Shown: piece after piece, positions 53,529-64,000 of the stretch | Position numbering within the stretch: the stretch's first letter is position 1 | How the letters are laid out: the number at the start of each line of letters is the position of its first letter | Assembly (NCBI RefSeq): GCF_040907265.1 | Contig: NZ_JBFOHP010000002.1 | Span: forward strand, 5,456,001 to 5,520,000 | Length of the DNA stretch: 64,000 nt | Origin: Streptomyces sclerotialus | GTDB taxonomy: Bacteria; Actinomycetota; Actinomycetes; Streptomycetales; Streptomycetaceae | Reading direction: 5' to 3' | The notes under the pieces: generated by a model | Told to the model about the DNA's origin: nothing | Seen by the model: only the letters and a program-made list of their open reading frames with translations | Database searches by the model: none | Made by a program: the position numbers and the translations under genes

Positions 53529-53556
53529 ATATCGCGTTCCCTGTGGAACACGATAT
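53529..53556. promoter_or_regulatory. Putative PadR operator
   Basis: ATATCGCGTTCC (53529-53540) and GGAACACGATAT (53545-53556) form a 12-bp inverted repeat with one mismatch and a CTGT centre, 34 bases upstream of the DUF4097 start; ATATATCG extends to the right. AT-rich palindromes of this kind are typical PadR sites. Confidence 0.55.
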
Positions 53557-53610
53557 ATCGCGGTCTGCGGAAGTCAAGCACCGCGCGGCCGCCCCGCGGA
53601 CGCTCCCCCC

Positions 53611-53790
53611 TTACTCGTCGTCCTCGTCGTCCAGCCGCGCCAGCCACGTCGCCAGCCGCTCCACCGGCACCTCGAAGTCGGGGTTGAGGTCGACGAACGT
53701 GCGCAGCTGCTCGGCGACCCAGCCGAGGGTCACCTCCTCCTCGCCGCGTCGGCTCTCCAGCTCCTCGATGCCTCGGTCGGTGAAATACAC
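53611..53790 (-). CDS. DUF6104-family small protein
   Basis: 59 residues from GTG 53790: MYFTDRGIEELESRRG at the start, then EEVTLGWVAEQLR, DLNPDFEVPVERLATWLARL, ending DDEDDE. It is highly conserved across Streptomyces and acidic at the C-terminus; no function known. Confidence 0.85.
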   Translation of the reverse strand: MYFTDRGIEELESRRGEEEVTLGWVAEQLRTFVDLNPDFEVPVERLATWLARLDDEDDE

Positions 53791-53917: not shown

Positions 53918-54349
53918 ATGAGCGAGGACGCGACACGTGTCGCACGTATCGAACTGCCGGACGGCACGCCCGTCTGGGCCCGGATATCCGGCGCCGAAGG
54001 ACTCCTGCCGGGGCCGCGGAGCGCGGCGTACGTGGACAGCGGGCGGCGCGGCGGGGGAGAGGGCACCGACTACGCCGACAGCGGCTTCTTCACCGATCGC
54101 GTCGTCGGCCGGGTGGAGAGCCTGGACGGGCTGGTGCACGGCGTCGCCCGGTCGCTCGCCGGAGCACTGCGGGGACTGCGGCCCGACGAGGTCAGCGTGC
54201 AGTTCGGCATCGAACTGAGCGGGAAGTCGGGGACCCTGGTCGGGCTGCTCGCCGACGGCGAGGCCAAGGCCGCCCTCAACGTCACCCTCACCTGGCAGGG
54301 CGACCCGCCCGCCGACCTCGCGGAGGGCGGGACCGGGGGCGGCGCATGA
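53918..54349 (+). CDS. CU044_2847-type trypsin-co-occurring domain protein
   Basis: 143 residues. It opens with ARIELPDGTPVWARI, followed by SLDGLVHGVARSLAGALRGLRPDEVSVQFGIELSGKSG, the motif of the small domain (trypco1-like) found beside trypsin-like proteins in NTP-dependent conflict systems. It probably interacts with the protease. Its stop overlaps the protease start by ATGA, so it is the first cistron of the block. Confidence 0.8.
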   Translation: MSEDATRVARIELPDGTPVWARISGAEGLLPGPRSAAYVDSGRRGGGEGTDYADSGFFTDRVVGRVESLDGLVHGVARSLAGALRGLRPDEVSVQFGIELSGKSGTLVGLLADGEAKAALNVTLTWQGDPPADLAEGGTGGGA

Positions 54350-56370
54350 ACGGGGCGCACGATCCGGACGCGTACTTCTCCCGGCGCTTCGCCCCGCTCG
54401 TCAAGGCCGCCACCGTGCGCATCCACGCCGTCCGCGACGGGTATCCCCACGAAGGGCCGCCGGAGCCGCCCCTGTGGGGCAGCGGCTTCTTCGTCGCCCC
54501 CAACTGGGTGCTCACCTGCGCCCATGTCGCGCTCGAGGGCGAGGGGGGCGAAGTGGGGGTCAGCTTCGAAGGGGGCAGCGCACGCGGCCGCGTCGAGTGG
54601 GCCGAGCCCGCCGTGCGCACCGGCGGTTTCCTGCCCGCGCCCGACCTCGCCCTGATCCGGCTGCTCCAGCCCACCGCACACGCCTGCTGCTGGCTCTCGC
54701 CGCGCACGGTGCGGGCGCACGGCGGCGAGCGCGTCGCCTACTTCGGGTACACCGAGATCGCCGGGACGGTCGGCGCGTTCGACGGACGCTGCACCGTACG
54801 CGGCGAGTTCGGCGGCGAGGGACTGCTGCGGCTGGGCAACGAGGACGAGATGCCGGAGGGGCTGTCCGGTGGCCCGCTGGTCGACGTGGAGCGCGGCGAG
54901 GTGATCGGCGTGCTGAAGGGACGGCGGGGCGGCGCGCGGGACGGCGGGCTCGGCGTCGCGCTGGCCCAGCTGCGCCGCATCGGCGTCCCCGGCGCCCGGA
55001 TCGCCCGCGAGGAGGACGACCCGTACCACCGCGTGCTGCACGCGCACGACCGGTACCACGCCGATCTGCACGCCGACGTCAGCGAGGCCCGGGACACCTG
55101 GACGGAGGCGCAGAGCGGACTGCCCGCCTCGGCCTCCACGGTCGCCGCGCTGACGCCCAAGCGCCGCGTGGTACTGCACGGCCTGCTCGCCCAGCTCCCG
55201 CCGCCGGCCGGCACGCCCGCGCTGGTGGCCCTGGTCGACGAGCTGCTCCCGAGACGCGGCGAGGGGCTGCGGATCGCGCCCCGTGGCTGGCGCGAGGGCC
55301 TGGAGGTCTACCTCGACCGGCTGGAACTCCGCGACGCTCACAGCGAGTTGGAGGCAGTACTGCGGTACGCGGTGTACGCCGCCACCGCCGAGCACCCCTA
55401 CCCGGCCGCACCCGAGGCCGCCGAGGCGGTCTGGGACTGGGTGCGCGACCTGGCGATGACCGAACTGCCGCCGCTGGCCAGGAACCGTCTGGGCGCCGAG
55501 TGGCACGCCAGGGTGCGCGCCCGCGCGATCGGCCGGGCCCGGCGCGCGGAGGACGCCGCGGCCGCTGGACCGCTGCCCTCGGTACTGCTGGAGATCACCG
55601 AACGCGCCTGGGAGCAGGGCCGGTTCGACTGGTACATCACCGCGAGCAGACCCGCCGGCGACCTGCCGCTGGGCGAGGGCCGGCACGGCACCGCGCTGGC
55701 CGACCTGCCCGCCGAGCTGGCCGGGCCGCTGGGCGAGGCGTTCCGCCGCAGCGACGAGCCGGACAGACCCGCCGTCCTCGAAGTCGCCCTCAGACAGGCG
55801 CTGCTGGACCTGGACGTGGACACCTGGCGGATACCGCCCGGATCCCGGCCGATAGGGGAGCTGCGGCCGGTGGTGGTGCGCTGTGCCGACCGGCCCCCGG
55901 GCACCTCGCCGGACGGTACGGAGCCGGGGCCCGGCCCGCAGGAGCGCTGGACGCGGCTGCACGAGGACGGCATGGACCACGCCTGTGTCGACTGCGCCGA
56001 GGGCCGCCCCGAGGACGTGACCCCCGAGGCCCTGCGGGACCTGGGGCCGCGGACCTTCCCGGTGCTGTGCCGGGTTCCCGGGGGCGACGGAGGACGCGAG
56101 ACGGTCCGCCGGATCGTCGGCAGCGGACATCCGGTGGCACTGTGGCGCAGGGAGCGCATGGACCCGGTGTGCGGGGAGTACCACCGCGGCGTCCTGCGCA
56201 CGGTGAAGAGCGGGACGACCGCCCACCGGCTGCCCGCCGCCGTCCGTGAGCTGCGCGCCGGCATCGGCGCGGGAGAGCCGGAAGCATACTGGTCACGCGG
56301 GATCACGCTGTTGTACGACGATCCCGGACGGCCGCTGCCGGGGGACGACGACGTGCTGGAGACACCGTGA
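54346..56370 (+). CDS. Trypsin-like protease fused to a VMAP-type C-terminal region
   Basis: 674 residues. The N-terminal serine protease domain (about 15-215) has an intact triad: H60 in LTCAHVAL, D100 in PDLALIRL and S174 in EGLSGGPLVD. A helical middle part (about 225-320) is followed by a large C-terminal region with DWYITASRPAG, DMDHACVDCAEG-like cysteines (HACVDCAE) and a W-rich end, matching vWA-MoxR-associated proteins (VMAP-C). No signal peptide: a cytoplasmic protease. It probably becomes active on a signal passed by the MoxR/vWA proteins. It is translationally coupled to the preceding gene. Confidence 0.8.
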   Translation: MNGAHDPDAYFSRRFAPLVKAATVRIHAVRDGYPHEGPPEPPLWGSGFFVAPNWVLTCAHVALEGEGGEVGVSFEGGSARGRVEWAEPAVRTGGFLPAPDLALIRLLQPTAHACCWLSPRTVRAHGGERVAYFGYTEIAGTVGAFDGRCTVRGEFGGEGLLRLGNEDEMPEGLSGGPLVDVERGEVIGVLKGRRGGARDGGLGVALAQLRRIGVPGARIAREEDDPYHRVLHAHDRYHADLHADVSEARDTWTEAQSGLPASASTVAALTPKRRVVLHGLLAQLPPPAGTPALVALVDELLPRRGEGLRIAPRGWREGLEVYLDRLELRDAHSELEAVLRYAVYAATAEHPYPAAPEAAEAVWDWVRDLAMTELPPLARNRLGAEWHARVRARAIGRARRAEDAAAAGPLPSVLLEITERAWEQGRFDWYITASRPAGDLPLGEGRHGTALADLPAELAGPLGEAFRRSDEPDRPAVLEVALRQALLDLDVDTWRIPPGSRPIGELRPVVVRCADRPPGTSPDGTEPGPGPQERWTRLHEDGMDHACVDCAEGRPEDVTPEALRDLGPRTFPVLCRVPGGDGGRETVRRIVGSGHPVALWRRERMDPVCGEYHRGVLRTVKSGTTAHRLPAAVRELRAGIGAGEPEAYWSRGITLLYDDPGRPLPGDDDVLETP

Positions 56371-56480
56371 GGGACGCGCGTCTTTCCGTGTGCTCCTACC
56401 GGGCCGCCGCCGGTCCCGATACGGTCGGGACGTGGCCGGTGCGCAACCGCCGATGACCCACCAGTGATGAGGAGTTCGCA

Positions 56481-57503
56481 GTGAGCGGACCGAACGAATG
56501 GCTCATCTACCGCGGCACGGGCGAGCCCCACGACGGCATCGCGGCGCTCCCCGACCCACCGCCCTGGCGGGACTTCGACGGTGCCCCGCTCGTCGCGCCG
56601 GGCCCGGCCACCGACAGCTCCTCCACCCGGCGGCTCGGCGAGCACGTCGCGGAGATGCACCGGCCCAGCGCCGAAGAACTGGAGATCGTCAACGCCGCGC
56701 TGTACCTCCGCCGTCCGCTGCTGGTCACCGGCAATCCGGGCACCGGCAAGAGCACCCTCGCGCACGCCGTCGCACACGAGCTGAAGCTCGGCCGGGTGCT
56801 GCGCTGGCCGATCGTGAGCCGGACGACGCTGGGCGACGGGCTGTACCACTACGACGCCATCGCCCGGCTCCAGGACGTGCAGATCGCCGCGAGCAGCCGG
56901 GCGGCCGGCGGGCCCGGCGCGCAGGCCGCGGCGCCCGGCGGCATCGGCAGCTACATCCGGCTCGGCCCGCTCGGCACGGCCCTGCTGCCCACCGCGCAGC
57001 CGCGCGTCCTGCTCGTCGACGAGCTGGACAAGAGCGACATCGACCTCCCCAACGACCTGCTGAACGTCCTGGAGGAGGGCGAGTTCTCGATCCCGGAGCT
57101 GGAGCGGCTGGCCGAGCGGGAGCCCGAGGTGGAGGTGCTCACCGACGACGGCCAGAAGGTCCGCATCCGCGACGGCCGGGTGCGCTGCCACGCCTTCCCG
57201 TTCGTCATCCTCACCAGCAACGGCGAACGGGACTTCCCCGCGCCGCTGCTGCGCCGCTGCATCCATCTGGAGCTGGGGCAGCCCGACCACAAACGGCTGG
57301 CCACGGTCGTACGGGCACACCTCGGCGAGGAGGCGGCCCGCGCGGGGGACGACCTGATCGCCCGCTTCCTGGAACGTTCCCGCAGCGAACTGCTCGCCGC
57401 CGACCAGCTGCTGAACGCCATCTACCTCACCCACCAGGCGGCTCCGACCACCCGCGACCGGCTCGCCGACCTCCTCATCCAGCGCCTCGACCGGCCGAGG
57501 TGA
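56481..57503 (+). CDS. MoxR-type AAA+ ATPase
   Basis: 340 residues. Walker A GNPGTGKST (84-92), Walker B VLLVDELD (D180, E181), sensor 1 ILTSNGERDF (N247) and Arg residues 258-259 in LLRRC. Family knowledge: MoxR ATPases work with vWA proteins in chaperone-like or signal-transducing assemblies. GTG 56481; it lies 110 bases after the protease and 4 bases before the vWA-like gene. Confidence 0.88.
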   Translation: MSGPNEWLIYRGTGEPHDGIAALPDPPPWRDFDGAPLVAPGPATDSSSTRRLGEHVAEMHRPSAEELEIVNAALYLRRPLLVTGNPGTGKSTLAHAVAHELKLGRVLRWPIVSRTTLGDGLYHYDAIARLQDVQIAASSRAAGGPGAQAAAPGGIGSYIRLGPLGTALLPTAQPRVLLVDELDKSDIDLPNDLLNVLEEGEFSIPELERLAEREPEVEVLTDDGQKVRIRDGRVRCHAFPFVILTSNGERDFPAPLLRRCIHLELGQPDHKRLATVVRAHLGEEAARAGDDLIARFLERSRSELLAADQLLNAIYLTHQAAPTTRDRLADLLIQRLDRPR

Positions 57504-57507
57504 TGGC

Positions 57508-60500
57508 GTGATGCGGGACCGTGCCGGACGCCCCACCGCCCCGCAGAGCTGGGCCGACGTGGTCGCCGCCCTGCGCAGCGCGGGCCTGGACCCGGACGCC
57601 GGGGAGCTCGCCGACGCCCTGTGGCTGGCGCAGTGGTCCCGGCCGCGCGGCGGCGCGGCGGAGCAGGAGAGCGGCGGCGGTACGGCGGCCGCCGGGAGCG
57701 GACCGCCGGGCGGGCAGGCGTCCGCGCCCGCGCGTACCGGCACGCCCCCGGGCGGCACCGGTACCGACCGCGAGCCGCCCGGCGACGCGTCCGCCGGGCC
57801 GCCCGCCGCCTCCCGCGTCGCGCTCTACCCGGACGGCCAGGAGCTGCCCGGCGCCGGTCCGGACGGCACCGGCGCGCCCGCCGGCCCGTACGGCACCGGC
57901 CTGCCCGTGGGCGTGCCCGCCGCGCCCGCGCTGCCCGACCTGCTCGCCCTGCAGCGCGCCCTGCGCCCCCTCCAGCGGTACCGCAGCGCGGCGCCCGCCG
58001 TGCGGCACGTGCTGGACGAGCGGGCGACGGCGGAGCGCAGCGCGCGGTCGGGCGGCCTGGTGATGCCGGTGTTCCGGGCGGTGCCGCGGGCCGAGGCGTC
58101 GCTCCAGCTGGTGATGGACGCCGCCTCCTCGATGTGCGTCTGGGACCGGCTGCTGTACGAACTCCAGCAGGTTTTCGCACAGTTGGGCGCCTTCCGTGAC
58201 GTACAGGTGCACTTCCTGCACCAGGGGCCGGACGGCGCCCCCGCGGTCTCCCGCCGATTCGAGCCGGGCCACGCGCCGTTACGCTCCGCCGACCAGCTCA
58301 GCGACCCCACAGGGCGCCGCGTCACCGTCCTGGTCAGCGACTGCGCGGGTCCCTTGTGGCGCAGCGGCCACGCGCACCGGCTGCTGCACCGGCTCGCCCG
58401 GCAGGGCCCGCTCGCCGTCCTCCAGCCGCTGCCGCAGCGCATGTGGTCCCGCACCCGGCTGCCCGTCTCCTACGGCACGCTGCGCCGCGGCGAAGGCCCG
58501 TCCTACGCCACGGCGCTGCACTTCACGGGCGACACCGCGCAGGCCGCGCCCGGCGCGCTGCCGGTGCCCGTGCTGCCGCCCGCCGCCGGCGCCCTCGCGG
58601 CCTGGGCGAAGCTGCTCTCCGGTACGGGCGCGGGACAGGTGCCCGCCGCCGTCGGCTGGCTCCGTGCCGACCAGCCGCCGGCCCCCGCGCCCCGCCCCCG
58701 CGACCCGCTGCCCGCCGCCGAGGTCGTCGCGCGCTTCCGGCGCGCTGCCTCGCCCGGCGCCGCGCAGCTCGCCGTCTACCTGGCGGCGGCGCCGCTGTGC
58801 CTGCCGGTGATGCAGCTGGTGCAGCGCACGATGCTGCCCGGCACCGGACCTGCGGAGCTGTCCGAGGTGCTGCTCGGGGGGCTGCTGACCCGGACGGACG
58901 GCGAGTCGATGGCCGGCGGCCCCTGGTACGAGTTCGTCAAGGGCGTGCAGGAGGTGCTGCTCGGGCCGCTGGGCAGGGACGAGGCGCTGCTGGTGCTCAA
59001 GCACTGCTCCGCGTACGTGGAGCAACGGTTCGGCAAGGGCGGCCCGAACTTCCCCGCGCTCGCCATCGCCCAGCTCACCGGCGACCGGGCGGCGGACGCC
59101 GTGGAGTCGGTGGCGCGGCTGCGCACCCACCCGCTGCCCGACGGGCCCGGCGTGCGCGCGCCGCAGCCGTTCGCCGAGGTCGCCGCGCACGTACTGGAGC
59201 GGTTCGTCCCGCTGCGCAGCGTCTCGGCCGACGCGCACGAGGGCCCGGGCGGCCCGGCGTCCTCGGAGGCGGTACGCCGCTCGCAGGCCCTGGTGCGGCG
59301 GTTCGCCGCCGACGGCATGGTGCAGAACCTCCTCGACGCGGTGCAGCTGCTGCGGCACGCCACGGAAGGCGAACGGCACCGGGGCTCCGACACGGCGTTG
59401 TGGAGCGAGCTGGCGGAGACCCTGCTGCGGCTGTGGGAACTCCAGGGCGGCCGGGCGCTGCTGCGCGAGGCGCACGAGGCGGCCCGTACGGCCGCGCAGA
59501 ACGGCGGGGCACGGGCTCGCACGGCCCTCGGGCGGGTGCTGCACAGGGAGGCGGGGGAGCGGCGCGCGGCCGGTGACGGGCGCGGCGCGCTGGACCTGCT
59601 GCGCCGTGCGGACCGGGAGTTCACCGCCGTGTGCGCGACCGCGGGGCTGGAGCCGTGGCACGCCCTGGAGATCACCCTGGAGCGGGTGCGGGTCCTGGAG
59701 GAGCAGTGGCGGCTCGGCGGCGACAGCGGGCTGCTCCAGGAGACCGTCGGGATGCTGGAGGCGTTCGCCGACGCCTGGCCGTACGACGAGGCCCAGCCCT
59801 CCGGCCTGCCGCTGGCGCACGGCCGGGCGCTGCTGCGGCTGGCCGGCACGGCCGCCGACCGGGAACAGGCCGAGGCACACGCCCAGCAGGCGGCTGCCTC
59901 GCTGACGCACGCGGCCGACGCGATGGCCGCGGAGGGCGCGCCCGAGGACGCCCGGCTGTGGGCCCGGCTGGACCTGGTGGACGCGCTGCTGACGCTCGGC
60001 GGCGACGCGCTGGACCGGGCGGGCCGGCTGGTCGAGGAGGTGGGGGAGGCAGCGCAGGGACCGGACGAGCGGGCCGCCGTCCTGATGCGCGCCGCCCGGC
60101 TGGCGGTGCGGCGCTTCGAGGCGGACGGCGACGTCTCGCATCTGGCGGAGGCCGACCGGCGGTACGAGGCGGCCTGCCGGGCGGTGCCGCGGGACCGGGA
60201 GGGCTACGGCGACCTGATCGAGGAGTGGGGCGACGCGCTGCTGCGCCGGGCGCGCGAGCCCGGCGGCCGGGCCGTCATCCACCGTACGGTCCGGGTGCTG
60301 CGGGACTGCCGGATGGAGACCGCGGCCGGTGACCCCAGGCTGGCGCGGCGGCTGCTGGCCCTCGGCCGGGCCCTCATGCTGCGCCGGTCCGACGACGACC
60401 GGGTGGACCTGCGGGAGGCCGAGCACCTCTTCGGGCTCGCCGCGCAGTCCGCCCCCGATCCGATGGTCCGCGCCGAGTGCTTCCTGGAGCTGGGCGGCAC

Positions 60501-60801
60501 GCACCGGCTGGCGCACCGCCGCTCCCGCCTGGACGCGCAGCTGGAACAGGCGGCGGACGCCTACCGGCGCGCAGCGGACGCGGCGCGCGCGGCCCAGGAG
60601 GAGGCGGCCGATCCCGCCCCCGCCGTACGGCTGTGCGCCCGCGCGTACCACCTGCGCGGCGAGGTGTACGAGGACGCGCGCCGGCCGCGTGCGGCGCGGG
60701 ACGCCTACCGGCTGGCGCTGGAGGAGTGGCGGCGGCTGCCGGACGGGGGTGGACCGGCGGCCGAGGAGACCTCGCGCCGCATCGTGGACATCGGCAGGTG
60801 A
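57508..60801 (+). CDS. SAV_2336-type large protein: vWA-like domain plus TPR-like tail
   Basis: 1097 residues. The first 45 residues form a small helical domain (SWADVVAALRSAGLD); about 50-140 is Gly/Pro/Ala-rich linker. A vWA-like fold at about 195-345 has LVMDAASSM (D204) where the MIDAS DxSxS is expected, and VLVSDCAG (D278) as the later metal Asp; the motif is degenerate. Residues about 640-1090 are helical TPR-like repeats with many Ala/Arg/Leu. Together with the adjacent MoxR and VMAP it completes a ternary set. GTG 57508 or ATG 57511 start. Confidence 0.8.
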   Translation: MMRDRAGRPTAPQSWADVVAALRSAGLDPDAGELADALWLAQWSRPRGGAAEQESGGGTAAAGSGPPGGQASAPARTGTPPGGTGTDREPPGDASAGPPAASRVALYPDGQELPGAGPDGTGAPAGPYGTGLPVGVPAAPALPDLLALQRALRPLQRYRSAAPAVRHVLDERATAERSARSGGLVMPVFRAVPRAEASLQLVMDAASSMCVWDRLLYELQQVFAQLGAFRDVQVHFLHQGPDGAPAVSRRFEPGHAPLRSADQLSDPTGRRVTVLVSDCAGPLWRSGHAHRLLHRLARQGPLAVLQPLPQRMWSRTRLPVSYGTLRRGEGPSYATALHFTGDTAQAAPGALPVPVLPPAAGALAAWAKLLSGTGAGQVPAAVGWLRADQPPAPAPRPRDPLPAAEVVARFRRAASPGAAQLAVYLAAAPLCLPVMQLVQRTMLPGTGPAELSEVLLGGLLTRTDGESMAGGPWYEFVKGVQEVLLGPLGRDEALLVLKHCSAYVEQRFGKGGPNFPALAIAQLTGDRAADAVESVARLRTHPLPDGPGVRAPQPFAEVAAHVLERFVPLRSVSADAHEGPGGPASSEAVRRSQALVRRFAADGMVQNLLDAVQLLRHATEGERHRGSDTALWSELAETLLRLWELQGGRALLREAHEAARTAAQNGGARARTALGRVLHREAGERRAAGDGRGALDLLRRADREFTAVCATAGLEPWHALEITLERVRVLEEQWRLGGDSGLLQETVGMLEAFADAWPYDEAQPSGLPLAHGRALLRLAGTAADREQAEAHAQQAAASLTHAADAMAAEGAPEDARLWARLDLVDALLTLGGDALDRAGRLVEEVGEAAQGPDERAAVLMRAARLAVRRFEADGDVSHLAEADRRYEAACRAVPRDREGYGDLIEEWGDALLRRAREPGGRAVIHRTVRVLRDCRMETAAGDPRLARRLLALGRALMLRRSDDDRVDLREAEHLFGLAAQSAPDPMVRAECFLELGGTHRLAHRRSRLDAQLEQAADAYRRAADAARAAQEEAADPAPAVRLCARAYHLRGEVYEDARRPRAARDAYRLALEEWRRLPDGGGPAAEETSRRIVDIGR

Positions 60802-60860
60802 CAGACGGCAGGCTCTAACTGGCCGCATGACGGGGGTAGTCGGCGGGAAAGGGGCAAGCG

Positions 60861-61091
60861 ATGAGTACGAGCCGCAAGGAGACGGAGGCGCTGCCGGAGG
60901 GCTGCCCGGAGGCGGCCGGGGCCGCGGTGCCGCCGGCCGGTGAGCTGCCCGAGCTGCCGGACCTGCTCGCCCTGGATCTCGCGGAGCTGCGCACGGTGGA
61001 GCACCCGGTGCTGGCCGAGGTCCTGGAGCGGATACGGATGCGGGTGGACGAACCCACCGAGATGCTGTGGGGATTCAACAGCGCGTTCTGA
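60861..61091 (+). CDS. FxSxx-COOH RiPP precursor peptide
   Basis: 76 residues ending F72-N-S-A-F76, exactly the FxSxx-COOH motif recognised for FxsA peptides. The leader has the conserved segment LPDLLALDLAELRTVEHPVLAEVLERI-like (30-58). The radical SAM enzyme encoded next probably links the Phe side chain to a neighbouring residue (three-residue cyclophane). AAAGGGG precedes the ATG. It lies 59 bases after the vWA-like gene. Confidence 0.85.
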   Translation: MSTSRKETEALPEGCPEAAGAAVPPAGELPELPDLLALDLAELRTVEHPVLAEVLERIRMRVDEPTEMLWGFNSAF

Positions 61092-61275
61092 CGTGAAACA
61101 CCTAGCGCTTTCGGAAGTTGACCGACGGCACCCGATCACTTTCGGTCGTTGGGGCCGACGGAACCGGACACGGCCGATCGCGGCCGGTTTGGCCACGCCG
61201 CCCCGCAGGGATACTCCGCCACGGACCGGCGACGGGGGCCGTCCCTGCGCGGGCCGCGGCTTTGGGGGTGCGGAC
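61092..61275. other. Gap between precursor and maturase
   Basis: 184 bases, containing TTGACC (61121-61126) followed by a less GC-rich stretch, which may be a secondary promoter. No gene seen. Confidence 0.3.
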
Positions 61276-62478
61276 GTGGCGCAGCAGACCGTACGGGACA
61301 CGGGCCCGTCGGCGGCGGACCGGCCGGACGTTCCCTCCTTCCGGCACCCTTTCCGGCAGTTCGTCCTCAAGGCGCACGGTCACTGCAACCTCGCCTGCCG
61401 CTACTGCTACCTCTACGAAGCCGCCGACCACGGCTGGCGCGACCGGCCCGCGCTGATGAGCGACGCGGTGCTGGACCGCACGGCCCGGCGCGTCGCCGAG
61501 CACGCGGCGGCCCACGGCCTCCGGCACGTGGCCCTCGTCCTGCACGGCGGTGAACCCCTGCTGGCCGGCGCCGCGCGCCTCGGTCGCGCCGTCGAACTGC
61601 TGCGCACCCTGCTGCCCCGGGACTGCACCCTGCACCCCACCGTCCAGACCAACGGCACCCTGCTCACCCGCGACCGGCTGCGCACCCTCGCGGGCCACGG
61701 CGTCCGGGTCGGCGTCAGCCTCGACGGCGGGCTGCCCGCACACAACACCGCGCGCGTGGACCACGCGGGGCGCCCGGCCTGGCCGCGTGCCGTACGCGGG
61801 CTGCGGCTGCTCGCCGAGGAGCACCCGGACGCGTACGCCGGCATCCTCGCCGTCGTCGACCCGCGCACCGACCCGGTGGAGATCTGGACCTCGCTCGCCG
61901 CGCTCCGCCCGCCCCGCCTGGACCTGCTGCTCCCGCACGGCAACTGGACGGCCCCGCCACCGGGCCTGACACCCGGCGCCGACGGCCGCACGCCGTACGG
62001 CGACTGGCTGTGCGCGGTCTTCGACACCTGGTGGGACGGCGGCCCGGGACAGCCGCGCGTCCGGCTCTTCGAGGAGTGCCTGGCCCTGCTGATGGGCGCC
62101 CCGGCCGGCGGCGAGTCACTGGGCCTGGCCCCGTTCACCGCCGTCGTCGTGGAGACCGACGGCAGCATCGAGCAGGTGGACTCCCTGAAGTCCGCCTACG
62201 AGGGCGCCGCCGCCACCGGCCTGGACGTCTTCCGGCACTCCTTCGACGAAGCGCTCGCGCACCCCGGGATCGCCGCCCGGCACGCGGGCGCCGCGGCCCT
62301 CGCCCCCGTCTGCCGCGCCTGCCCGCTGGTACGGGTGTGCGGCGGCGGCCAGTACGCGCACCGCTACCGGCACGGCAGCGGCTTCACCAACCCCTCGGTG
62401 TACTGCGCCGACCTCCAGCGCCTGATCCGGCACGCCGCCGGACGGCTGGCCGGCGCGACGCGGGGGCCCGCGCGATGA
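61276..62478 (+). CDS. FxsB-type radical SAM/SPASM peptide maturase
   Basis: 400 residues. The N-terminal radical SAM cluster motif is C37-x3-C41-x2-C44 (HCNLACRYCYLYE). GGEP (LHGGEPLL) and the TNGTLL SAM-binding strands follow. The C-terminal auxiliary Cys-rich part has CRACPLVRVCGGG and a later YC (NPSVYCADL). Such enzymes form aromatic cyclophane cross-links on FxsA peptides. GTG 61276 was chosen from the ribosome site; longer starts overlap the precursor. It overlaps the next gene by ATGA. Confidence 0.87.
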   Translation: MAQQTVRDTGPSAADRPDVPSFRHPFRQFVLKAHGHCNLACRYCYLYEAADHGWRDRPALMSDAVLDRTARRVAEHAAAHGLRHVALVLHGGEPLLAGAARLGRAVELLRTLLPRDCTLHPTVQTNGTLLTRDRLRTLAGHGVRVGVSLDGGLPAHNTARVDHAGRPAWPRAVRGLRLLAEEHPDAYAGILAVVDPRTDPVEIWTSLAALRPPRLDLLLPHGNWTAPPPGLTPGADGRTPYGDWLCAVFDTWWDGGPGQPRVRLFEECLALLMGAPAGGESLGLAPFTAVVVETDGSIEQVDSLKSAYEGAAATGLDVFRHSFDEALAHPGIAARHAGAAALAPVCRACPLVRVCGGGQYAHRYRHGSGFTNPSVYCADLQRLIRHAAGRLAGATRGPAR

Positions 62479-63866
62479 GCAGCCGGATCCCCCTGGACCT
62501 GCTGCGTGAGCTGGGGCGGTCCGAAGGCGGTGCCGAGGCGCTGCGGCTGCTCGTCGACGACCAGCGCGTACGGCGGCTGCTGGCGCTGCGCGCACTGCTG
62601 GACGCGGTGGACACCGCCCGCGCCCCCAGCGTGCCGCGGCGCGCGGCGGCACGCGTCGCCGAGCACTGGGCGCTCCTCGAAGCCGCCGACCACGCCGCCC
62701 GGGACACCACCCGCCAGGTGCTGTACTACCCGCTGCTCGGCCCCTGGGTACGGCGCGCGCTGCGCGGTCTCGCCGCCGCCGTCCCGCCGCCGCACCTCCT
62801 CCCCGACCTGGAACACCTCGGGGCCGTCGCCGCCGCCGCTGCCGCCCGCGCCGGGCTGCCGTTCACGCTCCGGCTGCGCGCCCCCGACGGCACGCTCGCG
62901 CTGCCCACCCTCGGCGCGTACACCCTGCCCGGCACCAGGCGCCAGGGCCCGCCGCGCGACGTGGAGATCACCTGCCGGAACGGGGCGCTGACCCTCCGCC
63001 CCGCCGCGGGCCGGCCCGCCGTGCTGCTCCACCGGCCGGACGGTACCTGGGAGTCGGCCGACCCCGCGTGGCGGCCGCTGCGCCGGCTCACCGGCGGGCC
63101 ACGCGCCGTACTCCTGGACGACCTCGACCCCTTCCGTACCGCCGACAGCGGCCTGGAGCGGCACGGGCTCAAACCCGCCGAGCGGCTCACCACCGCCGAC
63201 CGGGCGGGCTGGCAGGCGGCCTGGGCCGGGGCCTGGCCGCTGCTGGAGCGCGGCGGCCCCACGCGCGCCCTGGAGGCGGAGATCCTGCTGGACTGCATCG
63301 TGCCGCTCGCGCCACCGCCGCAGGCCGGGCCGCACGCCGCGGGCCCCGCGCACTGCAGCGGCACCCGCCGCGAGGCGTTCGGCGCGGTGCTCAGCTCCGC
63401 GCCGCAGACCCCCGCCTTCCTCGCCGCGACGCTCGTCCACGAGCTCCAGCACGCCAAACTGTCCGCGCTCACCGAGCTGACCCCGCTGCACCACGACACC
63501 GGCACCACCCGGCACTGGGCGCCCTGGCGGCCCGACCCGCGTCCCTTCGACGGGCTGCTCCAGGGCACGTACTCGCACCTCGCGCTCGCCGACTACTGGC
63601 AGCGCTTCGCGCTGACCGCCGAGAACGCGCTGGAGCGCCACACCGCCTGGGCCGAGCACTCCCGCTGCCGGGAACAGGTCGGCGCCGCGCTGCCCACGCT
63701 GCTCGGCTCGCGCGCCCTCACCCCGGCCGGCCGCGTGCTGACCGGCGCGATGGCCGACCGGCTCACCCGATTGCGGGAACGGCCGCCCCCGGAGGGCTAC
63801 ATGGCCCGCGCGAGCGCCTACGTGGAGACCTCACGGACGATGTGGCGGCGTCAGCACGCGCGATGA
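62475..63866 (+). CDS. HEXXH-motif protein of the FxSxx locus (putative peptide hydroxylase)
   Basis: 463 residues. HELQH at 322-326 (H322, E323, H326) lies in a C-terminal domain; the first 300 residues are helical then beta-rich. HEXXH proteins next to radical SAM RiPP genes are annotated as 2-oxoglutarate-dependent peptide beta-hydroxylases (family knowledge; not a protease). Overlap with the rSAM gene indicates co-translation, so it probably modifies the same precursor. Confidence 0.8.
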   Translation: MSSRIPLDLLRELGRSEGGAEALRLLVDDQRVRRLLALRALLDAVDTARAPSVPRRAAARVAEHWALLEAADHAARDTTRQVLYYPLLGPWVRRALRGLAAAVPPPHLLPDLEHLGAVAAAAAARAGLPFTLRLRAPDGTLALPTLGAYTLPGTRRQGPPRDVEITCRNGALTLRPAAGRPAVLLHRPDGTWESADPAWRPLRRLTGGPRAVLLDDLDPFRTADSGLERHGLKPAERLTTADRAGWQAAWAGAWPLLERGGPTRALEAEILLDCIVPLAPPPQAGPHAAGPAHCSGTRREAFGAVLSSAPQTPAFLAATLVHELQHAKLSALTELTPLHHDTGTTRHWAPWRPDPRPFDGLLQGTYSHLALADYWQRFALTAENALERHTAWAEHSRCREQVGAALPTLLGSRALTPAGRVLTGAMADRLTRLRERPPPEGYMARASAYVETSRTMWRRQHAR

Positions 63867-63966
63867 CCGCCGACGACCGGTTCGCCGGTGTATGTTCCCC
63901 CCAAGGGCAGCTCTGACGGTCCTTGCCCGGCCGTTCGTTCGTACGCAAGACGAGGGAGTCGTTCGA

Positions 63967-64000
63967 ATGCCCGCAGCGCGCAGGACCATCTCGCACGGAG
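63967..64000 (+). CDS. Next gene of the block, cut by the window edge
   Basis: Only MPAARRTISHG is visible from ATG 63967, preceded by GAGGGAG at a proper distance. Its identity cannot be judged; FxSxx loci often continue with fxsC (TIR-like) or a TPR/NB-ARC gene. Confidence 0.5.
   Translation, partial: MPAARRTISHG

Follow-up and report, generated by a model that had tools for sequence, protein, structure and literature searches.

A stretch of 64,000 nucleotides from the Streptomyces sclerotialus contig NZ_JBFOHP010000002.1 (positions 5,456,001 to 5,520,000 of the forward strand; hereafter the window) carries near its right end a conserved gene block, in which an immune-like gene set of a published kind, the VMAP ternary system, is joined to peptide-making genes of the FxSxx type. 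We have hardly any doubt that the combined block is a real unit. Seven complete co-directional genes span positions 53918-63866 and encode, in this order, Trypco1, trypsin-VMAP-C, MoxR, vWA/SAV_2336, FxsA, FxsB and HExxH proteins, the last being related to alpha-ketoglutarate (aKG)-dependent hydroxylases. The start of an eighth gene also lies inside the window, and the block comprises nine genes if both copies of that gene, FxsT, are counted.

Co-inheritance of the VMAP core and the peptide genes

Linkage was assessed in a sample of 150 genomes of the family, where the TIGR04268 (FxsA) profile yielded 114 listed matches across 93 genomes, and the SAV_2336 profile had matches in 112 genomes (150 places listed, weaker ones left out). 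We call an FxsA locus linked if a co-directional VMAP core (a SAV_2336 gene) is situated upstream, and unlinked if it is a stand-alone FxSxx locus. Thirty-seven of the 114 FxsA matches (37 genomes) have a co-directional SAV_2336 gene upstream at a distance of 1.7-2.6 kb, and none was found within 6 kb of a SAV_2336 gene on the opposite strand; the other 77 have no listed SAV_2336 gene upstream. One hundred FxsA rows were read (40 linked, 60 unlinked), the remaining 14 matches being below the cut-off; the linked set increased from 37 to 40 by addition of G219, G240 and G243, which have fragmented or contig-edge VMAP loci without a listed SAV_2336 gene upstream. A profile search of the class sample found FxsA in 16 of the 118 genomes.

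In the FxsB tree (101 rows; 41 linked, 60 unlinked, L102 omitted) all linked rows form one side of a single branch, with a Shimodaira-Hasegawa-like approximate likelihood ratio (SH-aLRT) of 99, and the same is observed for FxsT (95 rows; 42 linked, 53 unlinked; SH-aLRT 100), both being quick trees without bootstraps and the FxsT one carrying a long-branch warning. Over 31 linked loci, the correlation of protein distances between vWA and FxsT was r = 0.987, or 0.965 with the neighbouring gene kgd held constant; for vWA and FxsB it was 0.959 and 0.892, respectively, and for the system and kgd, 0.76-0.82. Thus, the two halves are more closely tied to each other than to kgd.

If the block were two independent operons, neighbours by chance or through a shared insertion site, the 184 bp gap between FxsA and FxsB and other gaps would leave room for separate promoters, and the halves do occur apart in G133, L161, L211 and L216. 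This explanation is nevertheless extremely improbable, as it is already contradicted by the fixed order and strand of the linked matches, the single branches and the correlated distances. The first-pass annotation of the window, made from the letters alone, had proposed that the two halves belong together and had named co-occurrence at the level of chance as the outcome that would speak against it; in the 150 genomes the linkage is far above chance, and the proposal stands.

Some other arrangements were also seen. L102, an FxsA locus in G228 that is absent from the trees, has an oppositely oriented VMAP-type system at a distance of about 6.7 kb; the unlinked loci L092, L093 and L112-L117 contain two FxsA/FxsB sets about 8.5 kb apart, and L092 also has FxsC (TIR-like). 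The genome of the window has a second VMAP/SAV_2336 system (G000:C2:6473290-6476595) with no FxsA match nearby and a third, weak VMAP-C match at 7883267; its sole FxsA match in the TIGR04268 search is the window locus.

A single chromosomal site

All 37 linked loci are situated between the same two markers, a DUF6104 gene and kgd, both outside the system. In the window, the left marker DUF6104 is at 53614..53790 on the minus strand (PF19599, 125 bits), and kgd, on the strand opposite to the system, ends near window-equivalent position 69965 (L003:16965 onward). DUF6104 was found in 149 of the 150 family genomes. The distance between the markers is 12.6-22.5 kb on one contig in 36 of the 37 linked loci; in the remaining one (G238) one marker is inverted. 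Ten more genomes have SAV_2336 at the site and no TIGR04268 match, and all ten contain a precursor-like open reading frame (ORF) together with FxsB or the HExxH gene; G219 has a broken copy of the system there.

The spacing of the two markers was measurable, on a shared contig and strand, in 133 of the 150 genomes and not in the other 17. The site is empty (gap of 400 bp or less) in 52 of the 133, and the gap is 0.6-5.7 kb in 33; in G178 it reaches 22.6 kb with no listed SAV_2336 match. In six loci with small inserts and listed ORFs, tblastn found no part of the system, and neither marker is nearby in any of the 57 fetched family loci without a MoxR match. The only trace at an unoccupied site is in L239 (G139), which retains a relic of the HExxH gene (197 aligned residues, 36.5% identity), which suggests loss.

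According to the relevant passages of Kaur 2020 (PMC7159879), VMAP systems of 141 Streptomycetales prefer a position about 33% from either chromosome end, which is ascribed there to recombination affecting the chromosome arms. In our comparison, which used hand-picked genomes with few contigs and partly rounded sizes, the folded positions of the at-site loci centre on a median of 0.337 (n = 18, sd 0.05; orientations 8 and 10), while the VMAP loci elsewhere range from 0.004 to 0.49 (n = 29, median 0.245). We suggest that much of the published peak is orthology at the kgd site. In genomes not scored as occupied, kgd itself is at 0.30-0.39 in 16 of 18, and G089, one of the two exceptions, carries the system with an inverted flank.

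One vertical-looking address beside a tricarboxylic acid cycle gene, with clean presence or absence, would also be expected if the block controlled development or self/non-self recognition in multinucleate hyphae rather than phage defence. This possibility is further favoured by the plasmid set, without a record covering 80% of the vWA protein, and by the phage set, likewise for FxsB. On the other hand, trypsin-VMAP, vWA and FxsT evolve fast relative to kgd (mean p-distances 0.53, 0.47 and 0.41, respectively, and 0.15 for a 400-residue part of kgd), the presumed effector is of the TIR-NB-ARC type, and extra FxsT copies are variable. We consider the developmental role unlikely.

By eye, palindromic CGATATATCG-like repeats are visible at window positions 53530-53570, upstream of the divergent left-hand gene and near a PadR-like regulator; they are a possible operator.

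Composition of the VMAP core

The first gene encodes Trypco1, the trypsin-co-occurring domain 1 protein (53918..54349, plus strand as all genes of the block; 143 aa; PF19493, E-value 1e-17), and has an ATGA overlap with the second one, the trypsin-VMAP-C gene (54346..56370; 674 aa; PF13365 and PF20028, the latter with 141.6 bits). The protease triad of the latter is His60, Asp100 and Ser174, and in 42 linked rows it is retained as 41 His (with one gap), 42 Asp and 42 Ser. No second protease was recognised by profile searches of the block proteins. The third gene encodes a MoxR-type AAA+ ATPase (56481..57503; 340 aa; PF07728) with N-terminal W and PPWR motifs; its Walker A and B residues are invariant in 43 of 43 rows, and W7 and W29-R30 are kept in 42, the remaining row having a gap. 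The fourth is the SAV_2336-type vWA protein (57511..60801; about 1096 aa; NF041121, 490.6 bits), whose metal ion-dependent adhesion site (MIDAS) residues Asp203 and Asp277 are both present in 40 of 41 rows, again with one gap. Its predicted model matches the midasin MIDAS in a fold search, and a TPR at its C-terminus is matched weakly (TPR_12, E-value 0.057).

The WxhapG and PsWR motifs at the MoxR N-terminus define VMAP ternary systems in the pertinent part of Kaur 2020 (PMC7159879). The block has the order of a VMAP-C protein, MoxR and vWA, both of the N-terminal motifs and the two vWA aspartates, and therefore belongs to these systems. The eight co-directional genes from Trypco1 to a "further gene", as initially described, are all recovered by profile matches, with conserved active-site motifs.

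The precursor and its maturation enzymes

FxsA (60861..61091; TIGR04268, 51.2 bits) is a precursor of 76 aa with the C-terminus LWGFNSAF. Downstream of it are FxsB, a radical SAM/SPASM cyclophane maturase homologue (61276..62478; 400 aa, start codon inferred; TIGR04269, 435.8 bits), and an aKG-HExxH-type peptide hydroxylase homologue (62475..63866; 463 aa; TIGR04267, 170.5 bits against a 40-bit cut-off). As TIGR04268, TIGR04269, TIGR04267 and NF040586 all score above their cut-offs, the precursor, radical SAM-SPASM, HExxH and separate downstream TIR/AP-ATPase genes of the VMAP-plus-FxSxx subtype are all present.

The linked and unlinked precursors differ in their ends. The strict FxSxx-COOH end is seen in 7 of 40 linked vs. 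41 of 60 unlinked precursors, the W-x-[FY] core in 32 of 40 vs. 0 of 60, and the full pattern W-x-[FWY]-x-[NSTAR]-x-[FMLIVC]-COOH in 22 of 40 vs. 0 of 60. In a separate named-core set (80 loci, 79 precursors read), picked by FxsB similarity and hence no test of linkage, 73 of 79 end with the full pattern, and Asn or Ser stands two residues past the second aromatic in 76 of 78. This position matches the Phe-Asn and Phe-Ser cyclophanes, of the same spacing, that enzymes of the FxsB class are reported to make in the relevant passages of PMC11002830.

FxsB has CxxxCxxC in 41 of 41 linked rows, and its closest structure match is ChlB (9gm3, E-value 1.5e-76), the DarE model being matched only at 7e-13. 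The HExxH motif and His368 are present in 39 of 39 linked rows of the hydroxylase homologue, which matches 22nu (E-value 5.8e-29) and ChlH (8s5f, 5.4e-6); for its relatives, the part of PMC12636437 concerned describes aKG-dependent hydroxylation or oxidative cleavage of the backbone, and one of these enzymes is also proteolytic without the leader. Judged from these sequences, the small peptide is probably cross-linked, and its core is compatible with a triceptide link from an aromatic residue to the residue two positions on. The product of kgd consumes 2-oxoglutarate, and the HExxH enzyme of the adjoining system should need it, possibly by coincidence.

Three core types occupy the same site: FxsB with HExxH, mostly of the W-G-F type; FxsB alone, mostly with Y-[H/Y]-[E/D]-D-like cores; and HExxH without FxsB, the core then containing W. 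FxsB and HExxH each need one change on the MoxR tree. We also considered the association of HExxH with the core Trp (33 cores with and 4 without Trp when HExxH is present, 0 and 11 when it is absent; Fisher test, 6e-8; L078, L101, L259 and L261 dropped). It is not independent evidence, because the MoxR tree needs only one HExxH change and two Trp changes and offers a single independent pair.

It was originally suggested, close to Kaur 2020, that the peptide might be a substrate or product of the VMAP trypsin, so that FxsA would be cut and its modified C-terminus freed as a toxin or signal. The conserved triad in linked rows and the lack of another recognised protease in the block are consistent with that, and so is an Arg or Lys 4-24 residues ahead of the core aromatic in all 38 scorable linked precursors (2 of 40 being unscorable). 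However, the same residue is found in all 56 scorable unlinked precursors (4 of 60 unscorable), which have no co-directional VMAP core found upstream; thus Arg/Lys is equally frequent whether or not a trypsin is linked, and we rejected it as a trypsin-specific site. In addition, L161 and L211 keep FxsA without a VMAP gene. Overall, we rate cleavage of FxsA by the trypsin as having a rather low probability.

The aromatic-x-aromatic-x-x-x-hydrophobic end, shared by most named cores and by 22 of the linked family ones, could alternatively indicate an exported antibiotic or hyphal signal, with the VMAP genes providing self-protection or regulation. The core of precursors of the darobactin type is WNWxKxF, and most of those in one cluster lack a follower (relevant section of PMC9055067). 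Yet none of the nine genes named in the window genome from DUF6104 to kgd encodes a transporter, no evident signal peptide is seen by eye in FxsA, and the radical SAM enzyme is nearest to ChlB and matches the DarE model much less well. Export is thus quite unlikely.

FxsT as a candidate receptor and effector

The gene that follows, described initially only as a further gene, is FxsT. FxsT1 (TIR-NB-ARC-TPR, 998 aa) starts at 63967, continues past the window end at 64000 to window-equivalent 66963 (L003:10967-13963) and matches NF040586, TIR_2, NB-ARC and TPR; FxsT2 follows at window-equivalent 67092-69881 (L003:14092-16881). Their NF040586 scores are 863.6 and 715.1 bits. Of the FxsA rows, 37 of 40 linked and 57 of 60 unlinked ones have a co-directional FxsT within the stretch fetched. 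We consider FxsT the likeliest effector of the system. The initial interpretation stands as far as the joined unit is concerned, and it missed the nature of this downstream gene.

The TIR domain distinguishes the two groups. Glu87 is kept in 39 of 42 linked vs. 0 of 46 unlinked FxsT, counting only the segment ahead of the NB-ARC Walker A (9 of 97 rows, in which no Walker A was recognised, omitted), and the same kind of contrast is observed when the unlinked proteins are scored as whole rows. Glu87 may be the catalytic Glu of the domain. The second difference is the C-terminal tail, R-P-[Y/F/H]-W-D-F-E-P, which is near invariant in linked FxsT; its W-x-F is found in 38 of 42 linked vs. 0 of 60 unlinked rows. 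In the predicted model (pLDDT, the predicted local distance difference test, of 85.9) the tail is an ordered coil with pLDDT about 89-90. Tail (W-D-F-E) and core (W-G-F-[D/N]) are similar to each other and confined to the linked clade. The best fold neighbours of the FxsT TPR region include several peptide-binding TPR proteins, namely APPBP2 (a degron), Rap/NprR (pheromones) and KLC1 (C-terminal peptides); W-acidic motifs are recognised by the TPRs of KLC proteins.

FxsT2 is a fast-diverged tandem copy (branch 0.84 vs. 0.23) whose tail lacks Trp. We did not retain its restriction to the clade of the window genome (G000), as the fetched stretches are too short and extra FxsT copies are also present at the site in G213 and G254.

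A possible mode of action

We tentatively favour, at somewhat less than even confidence, a reading in which the modified peptide would be an intracellular ligand of the FxsT TPR domain, gated by the VMAP machine. FxsB would link the core aromatic to the Asn or Ser at the second position after it, giving a three-residue cyclophane (F-N-S in this precursor) and perhaps another at W-G-F, and the HExxH enzyme would act on the core as an aKG/Fe oxygenase, in contrast to the metallopeptidase function put forward in 2020. After modification, the C-terminal peptide would stay in the cell and be read by the TPR superhelix of FxsT. The MoxR-vWA machine and the trypsin would serve as the gate: upon a trigger, a component would be exposed or cut and FxsT would assemble, after which its TIR domain may deplete NAD+ in an abortive response similar to that of nucleotide-binding leucine-rich repeat receptors (NLRs).

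A more specific version is improbable as a whole. In it, FxsT would be a bacterial NLR-like protein that uses a ribosomally synthesized peptide, radical SAM-cross-linked and HExxH-oxidised, as a dedicated intracellular ligand and inhibits itself via a W-D-F-E tail imitating W-G-F-[D/N], while the VMAP-MoxR-vWA gate would have been added once and the whole kept, lost or trimmed as a cassette in the single orthologous kgd-side slot across the family.

A number of observations weigh against the ligand reading. Next to DUF6104, L161 and L211 carry FxsA-FxsB-HExxH-FxsT, and no VMAP core was found there; L216 has FxsA-FxsB-HExxH between DUF6104 and kgd without FxsT, and the 56 positions of the vWA C-terminus that remain just upstream of its peptide genes are a deletion scar. 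These three loci suggest that the peptide pathway is independent of the VMAP core. Vice versa, in G133 (L259:4830-17519; kgd on another contig) the core from Trypco1 to vWA, with a 2548-residue vWA frame, adjoins DUF6104, and no FxsA, FxsB, HExxH or FxsT match was found within the 18.5 kb fetched. The unit is therefore modular, not strict, with three loci lacking the core and one core lacking the peptide genes, the two halves being inherited together in almost all loci examined. As for FxsT, a PDB profile search of its TIR gave weak matches, and those listed stop before Glu87, the putative catalytic residue. The APC/C subunits and MalT are likewise high among the TPR fold matches, and since TPR superhelices match many TPR proteins, these neighbours say little about the ligand. 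Mimicry of the core by the tail, tried by covariation, was rejected: within the linked clade L054, L058 and L087 keep the tail Trp and several cores lose Trp, so core and tail do not covary. Finally, little more than half of the linked family cores match the full heptapeptide pattern, the block keeps to one chromosomal site whereas many defence systems lie on mobile islands, and PADLOC gave only weak domain-level matches on the block.

Comparison with described systems

The first-pass annotation correctly placed the block among the known VMAP and FxSxx themes and missed that their association had been published. In the relevant passages of Kaur 2020 (PMC7159879), peptide-processing genes accompany about 20% of actinobacterial VMAP systems; in the FxSxx type, a radical SAM-SPASM gene and a vWA protein with TPRs only are accompanied by an AP-ATPase, encoded separately downstream, that begins with a TIR; and a zincin-like enzyme is proposed to cleave the precursor, the peptide being a toxin or signal. 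The window block resembles these systems in the VMAP-MoxR-vWA order, the trypsin with Trypco, the FxSxx-type precursor, the radical SAM-SPASM and zincin-like genes and the downstream TIR/AP-ATPase with TPRs. It differs from that account in the HExxH protein, which matches aKG hydroxylases rather than a cleaving metallopeptidase, in the linked core, mainly W-x-[FWY] in spite of the FxSxx label, in the tandem FxsT, in the weakly recognised TPR of vWA and in the single orthologous site. The words oxoglutarate and ketoglutarate are absent from Kaur 2020. Relative to its relevant passages, we regard three findings as new, namely the chromosomal address, the pattern of the core and the difference in the TIR domain; no literature search for kgd with VMAP was made. 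Our literature search returned nothing on SAV_2336 and nothing joining FxsB to cyclophane, or Fxs to cyclophane and radical SAM, and among the papers naming FxSxx only Kaur 2020 concerns VMAP-type systems, judging by title.

Among the maturases, FxsB is close to the three-residue cyclophane (triceptide) enzymes of the FxsB family and ChlB by TIGR04269 and the 9gm3 match, although the core here has two aromatics two residues apart (W-G-F). The HExxH protein is similar to the aKG-HExxH beta-hydroxylases (ChlH, PflC/PosC) by TIGR04267, HExxH, the conserved His/Arg/Tyr positions and the ChlH match, but it is a separate protein, unlike the radical SAM-fused ChlH-type enzyme in the relevant part of PMC12636437. 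Most unlinked FxSxx systems of the family genomes share FxsA, FxsB and FxsT; they have no co-directional VMAP core upstream, their FxsT lacks the TIR Glu and, in two loci where this was tested, has a MinD/ParA domain at its N-terminus, and most of their cores are of the type AAF[NQ]S or TFNSAL and contain no Trp. The likeness to darobactin, a C-terminal aromatic-x-aromatic-x-X-x-F pattern, is a resemblance of letters only, as the radical SAM family is different.

What the peptide does in VMAP systems thus becomes testable, since the family provides occupied and empty alleles of one site, three enzyme and core types, VMAP-less loci, of which L161, L211 and L216 are good natural test cases for the peptide pathway without the core, and a receptor candidate.

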